This document shows, piece by piece, positions 9,920 to 53,745 of a stretch of DNA of 53,777 nt (position 1 is the first letter of the stretch; each line of letters starts with the position of its first letter). The position numbers and the translations under genes were made by a program. The stretch covers positions 1-53,777 of the IMG/VR virus record IMGVR_UViG_3300025161_000009. One strand, 5' to 3'. The notes beneath the pieces were generated by a model, which was given only the letters and a program-made list of their open reading frames with translations, did no database searches and was not told the origin of the DNA. This DNA comes from a virus.

Positions 9920-10259
9920 AGGACGCTCCCCGGTAGTAATATCCTAAACTAAACAAGGTTAGAATCCTGGGGGGTTACGCTCCGGGTCTACCTTGTCACT
10001 CATGTACCCCCTGCCATTTGGCAGTTCAGTTCCCACTAGACAAGTGTCCCTGTACCCTGCGAGTGGTACACCCCAGGTTGATAATGTAGTAGTACCCCCG
10101 GGTGGGGAACCTCATTTCTGAGGTTCCCCCGCTTAGGAGGCGGGAGTCACTGGGTGACTCCTGGGTGCCGGGGAAGAATCGAACTTCCCGTTACTCACCC
10201 TGAGGGTTTTTCCAGAACAGCACCCAGCAGCCACCCAATGGGTGCCTGCCTTGATAAAA
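9920..10259 (-). ncRNA. hairpin-rich non-coding region (candidate structured RNA)
   Basis: 340 bp without a credible gene. Local structures include CTGCC/GGCAG (about 10008-10021), GTACC/GGTAC (about 10050-10068), an 11-bp stem GGGGAACCTCA/TGAGGTTCCCC with a 4-nt loop (10104-10129), CCCGC/GCGGG with loop TTAGGAG on the plus strand (10128-10144), GGAGTCAC/GTGACTCC (10143-10161) and a tRNA-like fold (10163-10225). It also holds one ATTATCAA site (10078). The density of stable stems suggests a folded transcript. Minus strand is inferred from the tRNA-like part and the surrounding genes. Confidence 0.55.
10163..10225 (-). tRNA. tRNA-like structure lacking a full cloverleaf
   Basis: Read on the minus strand, GGTGCTG pairs with CGGCACC as a 7-bp acceptor-like stem. 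It stacks on a canonical T-arm (GGGAAG, loop TTCGATT, CTTCCC). Only about 28 nt separate the acceptor 5' strand from the T-arm, which is too short for both a D-arm and an anticodon arm. A weak stem (CTGG...TCAG) may replace the anticodon arm. No CCA follows. This is a degenerate tRNA or a tRNA mimic rather than a standard tRNA. Confidence 0.35.
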
Positions 10260-11161: not shown

Positions 11162-11263
11162 TTTACACCTCCTAAGTGTAATAAAAAGTAGGTTATACCG
11201 GCTTCACACCGGCACAGGGTGGATTTCTCCACCCTTCACAGGTCTGCCTGCCTGTTACAGGTC
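11162..11263 (-). promoter_or_regulatory. structured leader A (paired with leader B), RBS in hairpin loop
   Basis: The mRNA leader carries, in order: CCTGTAACAGG, CCTGTGAAG, a 7-bp variable stem (plus arms GGGTGGA 11217-11223 and TCCACCC 11228-11234), CCTGT, a CCGG...CCGG hairpin (11198-11212) with loop TGTGAAG, and a 6-bp hairpin (11163-11181) whose loop TTAGGAG is the Shine-Dalgarno. Leader B has the same order, with compensatory base changes in the variable stem and in the RBS hairpin. ACAGG can pair with either flanking CCTGT, so alternative folds are possible. Confidence 0.75.
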
Positions 11264-12754
11264 TTACCAGGTAATAGCCTCATTGGCCAGTTTGTCCAGA
11301 AGTTCTACTTGGGATTCTCTTACCCAGTCAACCATTCTCTGGGTCCTAAGTTCACTAGAGAATGGCCTCCAGACGGTTCCCCACCCTCTAGTTGCTGCTT
11401 CCTCTAGATGAGCTTTAAGATCATCAGGGGTAGGATCTTCTTCCTCGTCCTCCCAATCTGACTCGTGACCCTCAACCACATCTTCAAGTGCCTGCTCTAC
11501 CTTGCGCTCGAACTCTGCCTTGATAGCATTCAGTCGGTCAAACTCCCTTAGAAGTCCCTGGTAGTAGTGGTTCCTGTTGATAATCTCTGAGGTAACCATA
11601 TTTACTGCCTTCCTACTATCTGCAGTGCACTCCTCACGTAACTTGGATACAATATACTCAAATGGAACCACCCGCATAAGGGCATCAGCTATCAAGGTGT
11701 AGTAATCCCGGGTTCTAAGTGCTTCAACTTCAAACCCGTGAGGTGTGCTATCCTTGGACAAGCTCACTGGATCACCACATTCTGGACAATGGTGACCATC
11801 CCTGCCTTCAATTGAAAACTCAGTTCTACAGTTCTGGCAAGTTGACTTGTAGATCGCCTTCACCTCAGCCCAGTCTTGGTACCCTTTGTTACTAACCTTG
11901 ATGCTGTACCAGGCATCTTCCCAGGTGCGTCCAACATTCAGAACATCTTCTGGTTCAATCCCTATCCGTGCCTCGTAGATGTAATCTGAGTAGCGGGTGC
12001 ACTGCTCACCAAAGGTAGGACCGATGACTGCCTCACCATCATAGTCGTAGTCACTAATGTGAAGTACGACTAGAGGTGTGCCCGTAGTAAACGGGTTATT
12101 CCATTCTGACCAACCAAACGCCTCACGCAGGACTTTCTCAATCGCTGCCTTGCTGCTCTTGCCCTTACCTGAGTAAAGTGCTCTAGCACCAATTGCCTCT
12201 GCCGCTGCCTTGAAGTCCTCAAAGAGTGAGTCCTTTTCCACGCAGATCATCAGATTTAGCCCCTCGAATAGAGGTCTCCAGATCCTTTCAACCATCCGGG
12301 AAGCATCCTCGACCCATAAGTCCTTGTAAGTCACTTCCCCAGAGTCAACCAGTTCTGCATAAGTCTGGCTCAACCGGGATACCCAGTCATCATCCGTGAT
12401 CTCTTTGACACCTTGGGAGTTGACAATGTAGTCACCCAATTGCATCGCTAGGGGTTGAGCAACTTCTGACTTGAAGTAACTGTACCAATGACGGCGTAGT
12501 GCCTTGGGTCTTCCATCGCCCTCAGGGCCCCCTTGTTTATCGAATACTGCCATCTGGCAGATAACTGCCACTCTGCAAACTGCTACCCGGTTGAAGCCAG
12601 GTAGTGACTTGTACTTCTCAACAAAGTCAGAATCCTTGAGTGCCCTGGTAACTGGATTGTAGAGTCCTGTATGAAATCCATCCCATGCACCTGGTATCTC
12701 AGAGAGAAGTCTGCGTCCAAAGTTATCTAATTGGTTATACCAACTGGTAGTCAT
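11264..12754 (-). CDS. Spo11/TopoVI-A-like Toprim protein with zinc ribbon (496 aa)
   Basis: The N-terminal region has KALRRHWYSYFKSE (about residues 84-97), resembling the catalytic-tyrosine motif of topoisomerase VI A/Spo11 (Tyr91 or Tyr93). A Toprim domain follows: CVEKDSLFEDF (Glu173) and HISDYDYDG (Asp235, Asp237, Asp239). A zinc ribbon sits inside or just after it, C306xxC309 and C323xxC326, and the C-terminus is an acidic coiled segment. TopoVI-A/Spo11 proteins cleave both DNA strands through the tyrosine. No B subunit (GHKL ATPase) is visible in the window. It is flanked by two paralogous genes with matching RNA leaders. A DNA-cleaving or nicking role in replication or recombination is inferred. 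Confidence 0.7.
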   Translation of the reverse strand: MTTSWYNQLDNFGRRLLSEIPGAWDGFHTGLYNPVTRALKDSDFVEKYKSLPGFNRVAVCRVAVICQMAVFDKQGGPEGDGRPKALRRHWYSYFKSEVAQPLAMQLGDYIVNSQGVKEITDDDWVSRLSQTYAELVDSGEVTYKDLWVEDASRMVERIWRPLFEGLNLMICVEKDSLFEDFKAAAEAIGARALYSGKGKSSKAAIEKVLREAFGWSEWNNPFTTGTPLVVLHISDYDYDGEAVIGPTFGEQCTRYSDYIYEARIGIEPEDVLNVGRTWEDAWYSIKVSNKGYQDWAEVKAIYKSTCQNCRTEFSIEGRDGHHCPECGDPVSLSKDSTPHGFEVEALRTRDYYTLIADALMRVVPFEYIVSKLREECTADSRKAVNMVTSEIINRNHYYQGLLREFDRLNAIKAEFERKVEQALEDVVEGHESDWEDEEEDPTPDDLKAHLEEAATRGWGTVWRPFSSELRTQRMVDWVRESQVELLDKLANEAITW

Positions 12755-12777
12755 CTCTGCCTCCTAAGCAAGAAATT

Positions 12778-13419
12778 TTACTCGTCTTCTAGGTTTTCTG
12801 GATTGGTCAGTGAAAATTCCAGAGTTAGTCCTAAGTTCCTAGCCTTCTCGACCTCAAGGAGTAGCTCGGCATAAAGGTTCCGTATCCGGGCCCTTTGAGC
12901 ATTCCGCAAATCTTTCTTCTGAGTAGCCTCGATCTTCTCCTGGGACTCTTTCAATTTCTCAGACAGTCCAGAATCCAACCCCAGTCGCTTCAGGATACTT
13001 GGAAGGGTCATTGCCTGGGACCGCTTTGTCCAGAAACTGTCAATCAAGGCTCCTAACTCATCAGACAGGTTAATCACTATCGGCCGGTACATAGTAGCTT
13101 CTGAATGTTCTAAACGGTAATGAGTAACCTCGTGCTTTGCAGGCATCCTCTGGACCAGTTGAGACAACTGGTTGCGCTCCTCTTCAGTTAACTCAGTATC
13201 CCAAGACCACAGAAAGCGCTTACTACCGTCTGGTCCAGGAGGCAGGTTGTCTTGCATTGCGTTGTATTCTTCAGTCCAAGCATTGCCTGCCTCTGGGTCT
13301 TTCCATTCCATAGAGTGGTAGGTGAGTACCTTCCACTTCATCTCAGAACGGGAAGGGTTCTCAATCAGGTAGTTGATAATGTCATCAGTTGTATTGAATT
13401 CTTTCGGTTTAGTAATCAT
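12778..13419 (-). CDS. paralogue 1 of the Toprim-flanking gene pair (213 aa)
   Basis: The start is ATG at 13419 (MITKPKEFNTTDDIINYLIENP), directly after the AGGAGG held in the leader-B hairpin; an upstream in-frame start at 13500 lies inside that RNA structure. Homologous to the 10487-11161 product over most of its length, including the DPEAGNAW block, NLSDELGALIDSFWTKR and ILKRLGLDSG. It ends in a basic helix. Not assigned to a family. Its place before the Toprim gene, with the copy after it, points to gene duplication around that gene. Confidence 0.75.
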   Translation of the reverse strand: MITKPKEFNTTDDIINYLIENPSRSEMKWKVLTYHSMEWKDPEAGNAWTEEYNAMQDNLPPGPDGSKRFLWSWDTELTEEERNQLSQLVQRMPAKHEVTHYRLEHSEATMYRPIVINLSDELGALIDSFWTKRSQAMTLPSILKRLGLDSGLSEKLKESQEKIEATQKKDLRNAQRARIRNLYAELLLEVEKARNLGLTLEFSLTNPENLEDE

Positions 13420-13530
13420 CTCACACCTCCTAAGTGTGGAATAGAATTTGCCGGCTTCACACCGGAACAGGCAAGAGGAGTAATTTCCTCTTACCTTCAC
13501 AGGGTACTGCCTGTTACAGGTAATAAGAAA
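13420..13530 (-). promoter_or_regulatory. structured leader B, RBS in hairpin loop
   Basis: Same architecture as leader A. The RBS hairpin is CACAC/GTGTG with loop TTAGGAG (13422-13438). The CCGG hairpin at 13451-13465 has the identical loop. The variable stem AAGAGGA/TCCTCTT (13473-13479 and 13486-13492) replaces GGGTGGA/TCCACCC, keeping all seven pairs. CCTGTAACAGGCAG precedes it, and AACAGGCA can pair over 8 bp with TGCCTGTT, closing the variable stem. It most likely controls translation of the downstream paralogue. Confidence 0.75.
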
Positions 13531-49003: not shown

Positions 49004-51481
49004 CTATCCCTCCCATTTCTTAAGATGCCCCCAGCGGTCCCCCCATTCTAAGTCTACCTTGAAGGGTATCTCCCCAGGGTCAATAATCTGAATAGTTTCC
49101 ATAGTTTTAACCATCAGTGGGGCAACTTGGGGGACAAGTTCCTCCTTGCAGAGAACCATGATAGAGTCATGCACTAAGAATAGTATCCAGGCACCCTCTT
49201 TAGGAAGAAGAGCATGGAGCCTTACTGCAGAGTCCAGGTTGATATCCGATGCCAACCCCTGGATGGGAGTATTGACAGAACGCCTTTCTACGTCCCCTCT
49301 GTTCTTGTAGAAGATAAAGGGGAAGCGCCTACGCCTGCCTGTTGCTGATTCTACATACTTGTACTTATGGACAAACTCGTGCTGCTTCCTAATCCACTCC
49401 TTGAACCCAGGAGTACTATCTAGGATACCTTCTAGTATTTCCTCAGCCTGTTTTAGTGTCCAGGACTGGTTATACTCAGTTGCGAGTATCCTTGCCTCAA
49501 TACCCTCCACAAGAGATTTGGCACCACGTCCATAGAGTACCCCGAACCTGAGACACTTAGCAGCATACCGCTCACCTTTTGAGATCTGGTCTGCAGGCTT
49601 ACCAAAGACAAAGCTAGCAGATTCTGCATGGATATCTCTACCATCCTTGAAAATCTGGATCATGGTAGGATCTTGGGAGTAGAAGGCACCCACCCTAAGT
49701 TCGAGTTGAGAATAGTCTGCTAGCAGTAACTTGTACCCCGGGGGTGCGATATAGGCATCTCGGATTAGTGGCCCCATCAGCAAGGGTTGGTTTTGAGGGT
49801 TAGGGTCTCGGTAGGCTATCCGCCCTGTGTCTGTCCCATGGATCAAGACGTCAGGTCTAACCCTCCCATCTGGGTCTAGCCGGTTGAGCACACCCTCAAG
49901 GTAGGTTGAGATGACTACTCCAACCTGCCTGTAGTTTATGAGTGTCTCAATAAACTCACGGACCTCAGGTGACCAGTCATGCCCTCCTTTCTCAAGTTCA
50001 AGCGACAGTTCTGTCTTACCTGTAGAGGGGACCATAAAGCCCATGTCTTTGAGAACCTTCTTTACCTGGACATGGGAGCCTGGGTTGAAAGAAGGCACCC
50101 CATGAGCCTCAGCTATACGGGTAAGCGTCTCCTTGAGTGAGGCATGCTCAACCTTCTTCTCTGCAAGGAGCTCCTCCATGTAAGGGACATCTATTGGGAT
50201 GCCTGTCTTTTCTACCTCGCAGAACATTCTTGCCGCAGGGATAAGTTGCCTTTCAACTAGAGTTAGTAACTTAGGTGACTCCATCGGGAGTTCTTGATAA
50301 AGGTCTTTATACAACCTGAGTGTGAAGTAGACATCCAATGCCTGGTACTCATACATGGTCTGGTAGTCCCGCTCCTCCTCCGGCAGTTTGAAGAACTTCT
50401 TGAAGTCAAACCCATAGTGAGTATCATAGCGGACCCTAACTTGGGTCTTAAGGCTAGAAATGGAGTAACTCCTGCCTTTAGGGGCTTCTATACTGGGGTC
50501 ATCTCCTCCTATCCCCCTCTCATCCTGGGCATACTGCATTAGCATAGTATCTGCTATCCTTGGGGGCTGGATCTCCTCCTCCAACCACTTTTGGAGGAAC
50601 TGGAGATCGAACTTGAAATTGTGCATAACGAGGAGGTGCTTGTCAGATTTAAGTAGCCTCTTTACTGCACTCTTTACTTCAGGGTCCTGGGCACTACTAA
50701 AAGGTATGATGGCTGAGTATCCGATTAGGTTGGCCTCGTCAAGAAACACCCCAAACCCTAATGATATAGGTTGGTCATAGTAGTATGAGAACCCGGTAGT
50801 TTCTAAGTCGCAGGAGACAACAGGGAACTCATCCAGTGTATCTAGCAGGTTGATAATCTCTCCCTTCTCAGTACAGATAGCCACCTCAACCTGGGTAGGC
50901 TCCATAGGAGTATCCCTTGTAGCAAGTTTATAGGTATCAGATGCAAAGTCACGGAACAAGTCCCATCCCCGTAGTACCGCAGAAGGGTGGTAAGTTGCTA
51001 CTCCAAAGGCTTTGTAAGGCACTTCTACTAGATCCTCTTCACCTAAGACGGTCTGCATACCAAACTCTATCCATTGCCCCATGCCCTGGTTCTCTGAGAT
51101 CTTAGCAATCTTTCCAGGTGAGATCATTGCTTGAAGAGCAGTGCCTCCTAACATGAGTATCTTCCTAGGATTGACATCCATCAGTTCATTAATCAACCTA
51201 CCATTGCAAGCAAGTACTGCTTTAGGAGTGGGAGTAGCATTATCTGGAGGTCTGCACAGGCAGGCATTAGTGTAGTAGACCTCATTGGGGTCAATTCCTA
51301 CTGCCTTCAAAGTGTCCCTCAAGAGCTTTCCAGACTCACCTACAAAGGGCTTTCCCTGGAGTACCTCATTCCTGCCTGGGGCCTCACCTAAAGCAACTAT
51401 CCCGCCCTTCCTTCCGTACCCTAGAACAGGCGGACAGTCCCTCAGGGGACACTTCTCACAACCTGAGTAGTTATCTATCAT
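49004..51481 (-). CDS. uracil-DNA glycosylase fused to family-A DNA polymerase (825 aa)
   Basis: Residues 1-195 are a family-4 UDG: CEKC near the N-terminus, ALGEAPGRNE (30-39), GKPFVGESG, TNACLCRPP and YHPSAVL (164-170). Residues 220-380 form a 3'-5' exonuclease (CDLETTG with Asp225/Glu227, then MHNFKFDLQFL). Residues of about 400-825 are the polymerase, with ADYSQLELRV, AAKCLRFGVLYGRG and FLVHDSIMVL (motif C His-Asp). Both halves look intact. It replicates phage DNA while the UDG part probably removes uracil. The ATG overlaps the upstream stop (ATGA). Confidence 0.85.
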   Translation of the reverse strand: MIDNYSGCEKCPLRDCPPVLGYGRKGGIVALGEAPGRNEVLQGKPFVGESGKLLRDTLKAVGIDPNEVYYTNACLCRPPDNATPTPKAVLACNGRLINELMDVNPRKILMLGGTALQAMISPGKIAKISENQGMGQWIEFGMQTVLGEEDLVEVPYKAFGVATYHPSAVLRGWDLFRDFASDTYKLATRDTPMEPTQVEVAICTEKGEIINLLDTLDEFPVVSCDLETTGFSYYYDQPISLGFGVFLDEANLIGYSAIIPFSSAQDPEVKSAVKRLLKSDKHLLVMHNFKFDLQFLQKWLEEEIQPPRIADTMLMQYAQDERGIGGDDPSIEAPKGRSYSISSLKTQVRVRYDTHYGFDFKKFFKLPEEERDYQTMYEYQALDVYFTLRLYKDLYQELPMESPKLLTLVERQLIPAARMFCEVEKTGIPIDVPYMEELLAEKKVEHASLKETLTRIAEAHGVPSFNPGSHVQVKKVLKDMGFMVPSTGKTELSLELEKGGHDWSPEVREFIETLINYRQVGVVISTYLEGVLNRLDPDGRVRPDVLIHGTDTGRIAYRDPNPQNQPLLMGPLIRDAYIAPPGYKLLLADYSQLELRVGAFYSQDPTMIQIFKDGRDIHAESASFVFGKPADQISKGERYAAKCLRFGVLYGRGAKSLVEGIEARILATEYNQSWTLKQAEEILEGILDSTPGFKEWIRKQHEFVHKYKYVESATGRRRRFPFIFYKNRGDVERRSVNTPIQGLASDINLDSAVRLHALLPKEGAWILFLVHDSIMVLCKEELVPQVAPLMVKTMETIQIIDPGEIPFKVDLEWGDRWGHLKKWEG

Positions 51482-53310: not shown

Positions 53311-53745
53311 CTAAATCTCTAGTGTGAGGTTCTGGACAAGATCTAAATAGCGACTGGCAACTACTGTTATGGCGATTCCACCTCTTGGCTTGAATACTCC
53401 AGTCACTTTTACATGGACAGGGGCAACCTCCTTCATAAAAAAGTCAGCAATCTCATTGATAATCTTCTCATGGAATGCCCTTTCATTTCTGAAGGACCAC
53501 AAGTACAGTTTCCAGGACTTGGACTCTACAATCTTTTCTACTGGGGAGTACTCAACAGTGATAGAAGCAAAGTCGGGTTGCCCAGTTACTGGACACAGGC
53601 AAGTAAACTCGTCTGAATGAAGGGTGATGGTACAGTGTTTACCAAACGCTGGGTTAGGGAAGCATTCTATCTGCTTCATAGGCTCAAGAACCTTATTACC
53701 TAGTATAGTTAGAGTGGGGTATTCAGGGTTTATGGCATTGCTCAT
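53311..53745 (-). CDS. queF: QueF, NADPH-dependent 7-cyano-7-deazaguanine reductase
   Basis: 144 residues, the short QueF type. The catalytic centre is TCLCPVTGQPDFA (Cys51, Asp58). The NADPH-binding QueF motif ESKSWK is at 74-79, followed by LYLWSFRNE, FHEKIINEI (His92, Glu93) and a PRGG loop. It reduces the nitrile of preQ0 to the aminomethyl of preQ1. The intact QueF motif favours true reduction over the archaeal QueF-like amidinotransferase. The ATG overlaps the queC TGA (ATGA) when the window ends are joined. Confidence 0.93.
   Translation of the reverse strand: MSNAINPEYPTLTILGNKVLEPMKQIECFPNPAFGKHCTITLHSDEFTCLCPVTGQPDFASITVEYSPVEKIVESKSWKLYLWSFRNERAFHEKIINEIADFFMKEVAPVHVKVTGVFKPRGGIAITVVASRYLDLVQNLTLEI

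Follow-up and report, generated by a model that had tools for sequence, protein, structure and literature searches.

Judged from sequence comparison, a leader of which two related phages together carry three copies, ahead of unrelated genes, is a real, structured and selected module of this phage lineage, and it very probably works as an RNA switch for translation start. That it acts in cis on translation start, and does so for a small number of the lineage's accessory genes, appears reasonably probable. Two of the copies, leaders A and B, lie in the stretch of DNA that was analysed (the window), the IMG/VR virus record IMGVR_UViG_3300025161_000009 from an uncultured bacteriophage, 53,777 bases long. 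The third, leader C, was found in a relative.

Leaders A and B are both on the minus strand, which holds nearly all plausible genes of the window (Table 1). Leader A begins 1 nt past the stop codon of the gene at 11264-12754 and stands within a run of same-strand genes, a setting that fits translation control better than a promoter alone. Upstream of leader B, about 490 nt carry no assigned gene. The first-pass annotation had described the two copies; their location stands, but the last nine or so bases that it assigned to leader B (to 13530) are not conserved. All the blocks that it named are present in both copies, namely CCTGTAACAGG, CCTGTGAAGG, a variable stem, the CCGG-TGTGAAG-CCGG hairpin and the hairpin with a TTAGGAG loop; the variable stem, given there as 7 bp, exists but is longer, with 8 bp in A and 11 in B. 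Over 92 aligned bases the identity of the two leaders is 88%, whereas that of the coding sequences which follow them is 50%, and 37% at third codon positions. The alignment score of A against B is 48.5; 1000 shuffles averaged -7.5 (sd 4.2) and did not score above 9. The length differences are found mainly in the variable stem and in the spacer ahead of the ribosome site. On these sequence measures, the leader is under stronger conservation than the coding sequence behind it.

Table 1. Coordinates of the leaders, their hairpins, neighbouring genes and candidate partner RNAs (window positions unless another record is named).
Feature	Position	Strand	Description
P0001	10487-11161	minus	224 aa, function not assigned; paralogue of P0002, behind leader A
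P0002	12778-13419	minus	213 aa, function not assigned; paralogue of P0001, behind leader B
P0003 (middle gene)	11264-12754	minus	496 aa, Toprim-like motif by eye only
Leader A	11162-11262	minus	Model R1, 107 bits, training copy; ends at P0001 ATG
Leader A hairpin 1	11251-11261	minus	CCTG-TAA-CAGG; invariant in A, B and C
Leader A variable stem	11216-11235	minus	AGGGTGGA-GAAA-TCCACCCT
Leader A CCGG hairpin	11198-11212	minus	CCGG-TGTGAAG-CCGG
Leader A ribosome-site hairpin	11163-11181	minus	TTACAC-TTAGGAG-GTGTAA
Leader B	13420-13521	minus	Precedes P0002; model R1, 105 bits, training copy
Leader B hairpin 1	13510-13520	minus	CCTG-TAA-CAGG
Leader B variable stem	13469-13496	minus	AGGTAAGAGGA-AATTAC-TCCTCTTGCCT
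Leader B CCGG hairpin	13451-13465	minus	CCGG-TGTGAAG-CCGG
Leader B ribosome-site hairpin	13422-13438	minus	CACAC-TTAGGAG-GTGTG
Middle-gene ribosome-site hairpin	12757-12771	minus	TTGC-TTAGGAG-GCAG; without upstream leader
Leader C	Relative contig L175, 6607-6710	minus	Found by pattern scan
Candidate complementary hairpin	10129-10143	minus	CCGC-CTCCTAA-GCGG; loop is the exact complement of TTAGGAG; speculative partner
tRNA-like element	10162-10226	minus	9-bp acceptor-like stem, T-arm-like hairpin, very short middle; directly upstream of the candidate hairpin
Anaya intergenic RNA	Anaya 59682-60066 (L226 9682-10066)		About 385 nt, no annotation in Anaya

The genes behind leaders A and B had been called paralogous, and this is borne out by 33% identity over 206 aa (E = 8e-33). 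Neither P0001 nor P0002 matched a Pfam or PHROG family, and the structure model of P0001 (pLDDT 80) gave zero matches in a fold search. The description of the gene between them as a Toprim gene holds in part: P0003 carries a Toprim-like motif, CVEKD...SDYDYDG, seen by eye, but Pfam Toprim was not matched. Its zinc-finger matches were weak and all below the cut-off, and its structure model was too poor for use. Protein searches with P0002 and P0003 in cultured phages and viral contigs found no relative, nor did the alignment of P0001 with P0002 in viral contigs and genome contigs, and by the search used, 50 records with a related terminase had none of the three proteins. Elsewhere on the minus strand, a uracil-DNA glycosylase (UDG) domain is fused to a family A DNA polymerase (49004-51481), and QueF (53311-53745) and a Vut_1-type transporter (656-1231) point to 7-deazaguanine metabolism.

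Leader C was obtained by scanning IMG/VR viral contigs with the pattern CTGTAACAG-N4..14-CTGTGAAGG, which gave four matches, three of them chance matches and one a full leader. The contig that carries it is collinear with the window, and many of its proteins are roughly 50-65% identical to those of the window (for example, 62% for the DNA polymerase and 66% for a DUF932 protein). Leader C is 85% identical to leader A, and the three copies are about equally alike in pairwise comparison. It keeps ACCTGTAACAGGCAG, CCTGTGAAGG, CCTGTGCCGG and the second CCGG, and it differs in the variable stem (AGGCTGCA/TGCAGCCT), in the loop of the CCGG hairpin and in the ribosome-site stem, which reads TGC-TTAGGAG-GCA. 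Within its variable stem there is also a second ribosome-site-like loop, TTAGGAGG (L175 6635-6690, minus strand), that is absent in A and B. On the coding strand of the window, CTTAGGAGG is found at three ribosome sites and once more inside a coding frame; the 19.6-kb relative has it at two ribosome sites. As a separate observation, the octamer ATTATCAA is found 30 times on the coding (minus) strand of the window and once on the other strand, and 16 times in the pieces L175 and L180 of the relative, every time on the coding strand; it sits both within genes and between them, and is polar and over-represented, with no role assigned.

The first-pass annotation had proposed a functional RNA fold from changes on both sides of the stems, a proposal against which a homologue with non-covarying stems would speak. 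In leader C, pairing is kept with two-sided changes in both the variable stem and the ribosome-site hairpin. All three leaders are more stable than their dinucleotide shuffles, with folding z-scores of -3.6 (A), -4.3 (B) and -3.0 (C). For the pair counts, stems were trimmed by hand to equal length and loops were cut or replaced; so treated, the 8-bp variable stem is paired in 24 of 24 cells over A, B and C and shows two-sided changes in four of its eight pairs, a level reached in 4 of 500 shuffles. Shifting the partner strand by sliding removes this signal. The ribosome-site hairpin was followed over five starts that carry CTTAGGAGG: those behind leaders A and B, that of the middle gene, and those of two L175 genes. 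Here 92% of cells are paired, four of five pairs change on both sides, and the covariation score was reached in 1 of 500 shuffles. A looser feature, a hairpin of at least 4 bp around the Shine-Dalgarno, is common, being found at 17 of 65 starts. The RNAalifold consensus of the leaders contains seven pairs changed on both sides; neither hairpin 1 nor the CCGG stem varies over the three copies, so these two carry no covariation signal. Two of the three full leaders served to derive the structure, and the paired changes of leader C provide independent support for the RNA fold. With few sequences and hand-trimmed stems, this amounts at sequence level to strong support rather than proof.

These paired changes also bear on two readings in which the hairpins would be without a role as RNA. 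The likeness of the leaders could come from recent gene conversion or recombination without function, as A, B and C are about equally alike while the genes behind them differ. This is highly improbable, since the differences between copies preserve the structure, including stem length and paired changes, and leader C is 85% kept in a phage at 50-65% protein identity. Alternatively, the leader could be a phage promoter or operator acting as DNA, with incidental hairpins. The 100-bp repeats ahead of few genes fit such an element, and a role of the conserved blocks in DNA binding or as a promoter would be conceivable too; however, the variable stem keeps its pairing and not its sequence, the ribosome-site hairpin has paired changes as well, and a promoter scan found sigma-70-type sites in the region at chance level. 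The extended start-associated sequences (ESAS) of cluster K phages, for which this kind of action was proposed, are reported as likely protein-binding DNA sites (PMC3203893) and with putative SigA-type promoters, which they overlap (PMC11373665). Even with this precedent, a DNA element is distinctly unlikely.

The remaining alternatives accept the RNA fold and differ in what would act on it. The first-pass annotation had suggested an autoregulatory leader, that is, P0001 and P0002 would bind the leaders of their own mRNAs, and both window leaders do stand ahead of paralogues. An autoregulatory leader would be expected before one protein family only, yet leader C precedes a 107-aa gene in which no similarity to P0001 or P0002 was detected. 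No relative of the two was found in the L175 contig either; this contig covers its phage incompletely, and a paralogue may be located elsewhere in that phage. Autoregulation by the paralogues is consequently improbable. A riboswitch, in which the upstream domain would bind a small metabolite and switch the ribosome-site hairpin, would agree with the compact, highly conserved core and the peripheral stem of variable length, and the invariant CCTGT blocks permit alternative pairings. It is nevertheless quite unlikely, given downstream genes without metabolic annotation, no match in Rfam, and a leader pattern that recovered no copy from 84,980 bacterial and archaeal genomes (43 matches, none with the remaining leader). 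The suggested response to 7-deazaguanine found no backing, as the leaders are not ahead of the deazaguanine genes of the window, and a ligand response in general is possible but unsupported.

The statement that the leader belongs to no known family agrees with the Rfam comparison, in which no family was reached at gathering scores. The best weak match, for leader B, was L20-Deltaproteobacteria, which scored 15.9 bits (E = 3.6) where the cut-off is 42.8. The cis-regulatory families of Rfam, such as riboswitches and ribosomal protein leaders, likewise have 5' leaders that are structured and place the Shine-Dalgarno within or close to a hairpin, but the window leaders do not reach the gathering cut-off of their covariance models. 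Further searches returned no additional copy: no credible match came from a blastn search of cultured phages with leaders A and C, an exact search for the CCGG hairpin found 85 viral contigs, none with the other blocks of the leader, and model R1 did not find the leader in 37 records other than that of leader C. The three matches to a pattern with both TGTGAAG blocks were rejected as chance. From its sequence, the leader is best read as a translational control element; it is new as an RNA family and belongs with the start-associated elements of phages, which are known only loosely.

The closest known elements are the Start-Associated Sequences (SAS) of cluster K mycobacteriophages, with the consensus GGGATAGGAGCCC (Pope 2011, PMC3203893). 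Similarly to the window element, SAS are conserved exactly at the ribosome site, a few bases upstream of the start codon, in several genes that belong to different families; a 3-bp stem closing a 7-nt loop that contains AGGAG can be drawn for them. They differ in sequence and stem: the window sites (ACACTTAGGAGGTGT, GCTTAGGAGGC) do not match the 13-bp consensus within two deviations, and three sites in the window and two in the 19.6-kb relative compare with 11-19 copies per genome. The SAS stem is nearly invariant with weak covariation (57 G-C outer pairs, 2 two-sided changes and 9 broken pairs in the cluster K genomes examined), whereas the ribosome-site stem of the window covaries. ESAS resemble the upstream domain in being a second conserved element just 5' of a subset of the ribosome-site elements, but they consist of two imperfect inverted repeats of 17 bp, and the changes in these repeats do not support pairing as RNA (PMC3203893). 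The upstream domain is about 80 nt long, is built of hairpins and of different blocks in a set order, and has covarying RNA stems; a likeness to ESAS in sequence was not noted. By the defining features compared, the window element is therefore neither SAS nor ESAS, although in position and reuse it is SAS-like. In cluster EF Microbacterium phages, the available parts of two reports describe SAS/ESAS-like motifs, GGGAAAGGACCCC (PMC7302621) and GGGAAGGAACCC (PMC12859693), with a repeated ribosome-site motif, GGG...CCC ends and a weakly conserved upstream element; as given there, the motif is unrelated in sequence to that of the window and RNA covariation is not reported for it.

Under the preferred reading, a cis-acting leader that controls translation start, an upstream domain of hairpin 1, conserved CCTGT blocks, the variable-length stem and the CCGG hairpin would be followed by the small hairpin, which would offer the Shine-Dalgarno in a 7-nt loop (UUAGGAG) a few bases 5' of the start codon. 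The position fits such control because the leader ends in the Shine-Dalgarno and the start codon. The module would gate ribosome access, and the acting factor would be common to all copies, encoded by the phage or its host and not the product of the downstream gene. Reuse ahead of unrelated genes fits a common factor and a gene-independent control module.

The least certain step is that this factor may be a phage RNA (10060-10260) whose loop CUCCUAA would close the ribosome-site loop by loop-loop pairing. On its coding strand, the window has a single occurrence of CCTCCTAAG, which is complementary to the ribosome-site loops with CTTAGGAGG. In both the window and L175, an intergenic minus-strand region contains the tRNA-like element followed by CCGCCTCCTAAGC; the L175 copy is located around 7270, the contig end falls within its tRNA-like part, and cis pairing of its CCGCCTCCTAAGC stretch with the next ribosome site is possible as well. 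ARAGORN calls no tRNA at 10162-10226, the tRNA-Sec score of 17 bits is below the cut-off, and the 5' end of the element presumably recalls the start of a tmRNA. Chance complementarity of 10-11 nt to intergenic RNA is also seen at the ribosome sites of three other window genes, and length by itself therefore does not make the partner RNA significant. From sequence complementarity, the intergenic RNA with CCTCCTAAG could be a trans-acting partner of the leaders, which is speculative.

The authors of the SAS report left open whether phage or host RNA or protein is bound, and described that K1 phages have single SAS copies in reverse orientation that do not lie at gene starts (PMC3203893). In Anaya, this copy (59870-59882) lies in the loop of a hairpin, GCGCGG-CCTCCTATCC-CCGCGC, complementary to the Anaya SAS and located in a 385-nt intergenic gap. 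The intergenic RNA is present in 181 mycobacteriophage records, and among nine aligned intergenic RNAs the SAS-complementary loop is found only in Anaya, Niklas and Amelie. A partner RNA as a general rule of cluster K was rejected, since the loop is lost in other subclusters, and in Ekdilam and Unicorn, though SAS is unchanged. The K1 parallel is suggestive only. The full scheme, in which a phage RNA with a tRNA-like domain would kiss the UUAGGAG loops of several phage genes through CUCCUAA as a set-wise translation switch, with the upstream leader tuning or recruiting it and K1 phages such as Anaya having an independent version, is rather unlikely.

Start-associated sequences of phages were already known in 2011, but no mechanism has been established for them. 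A separate lineage with covarying stems in both the ribosome-site element and its extension makes an action as RNA directly testable. If the complementary phage RNA were indeed the partner, the result would be a phage switch, built of RNA, that controls the translation of genes as a set.
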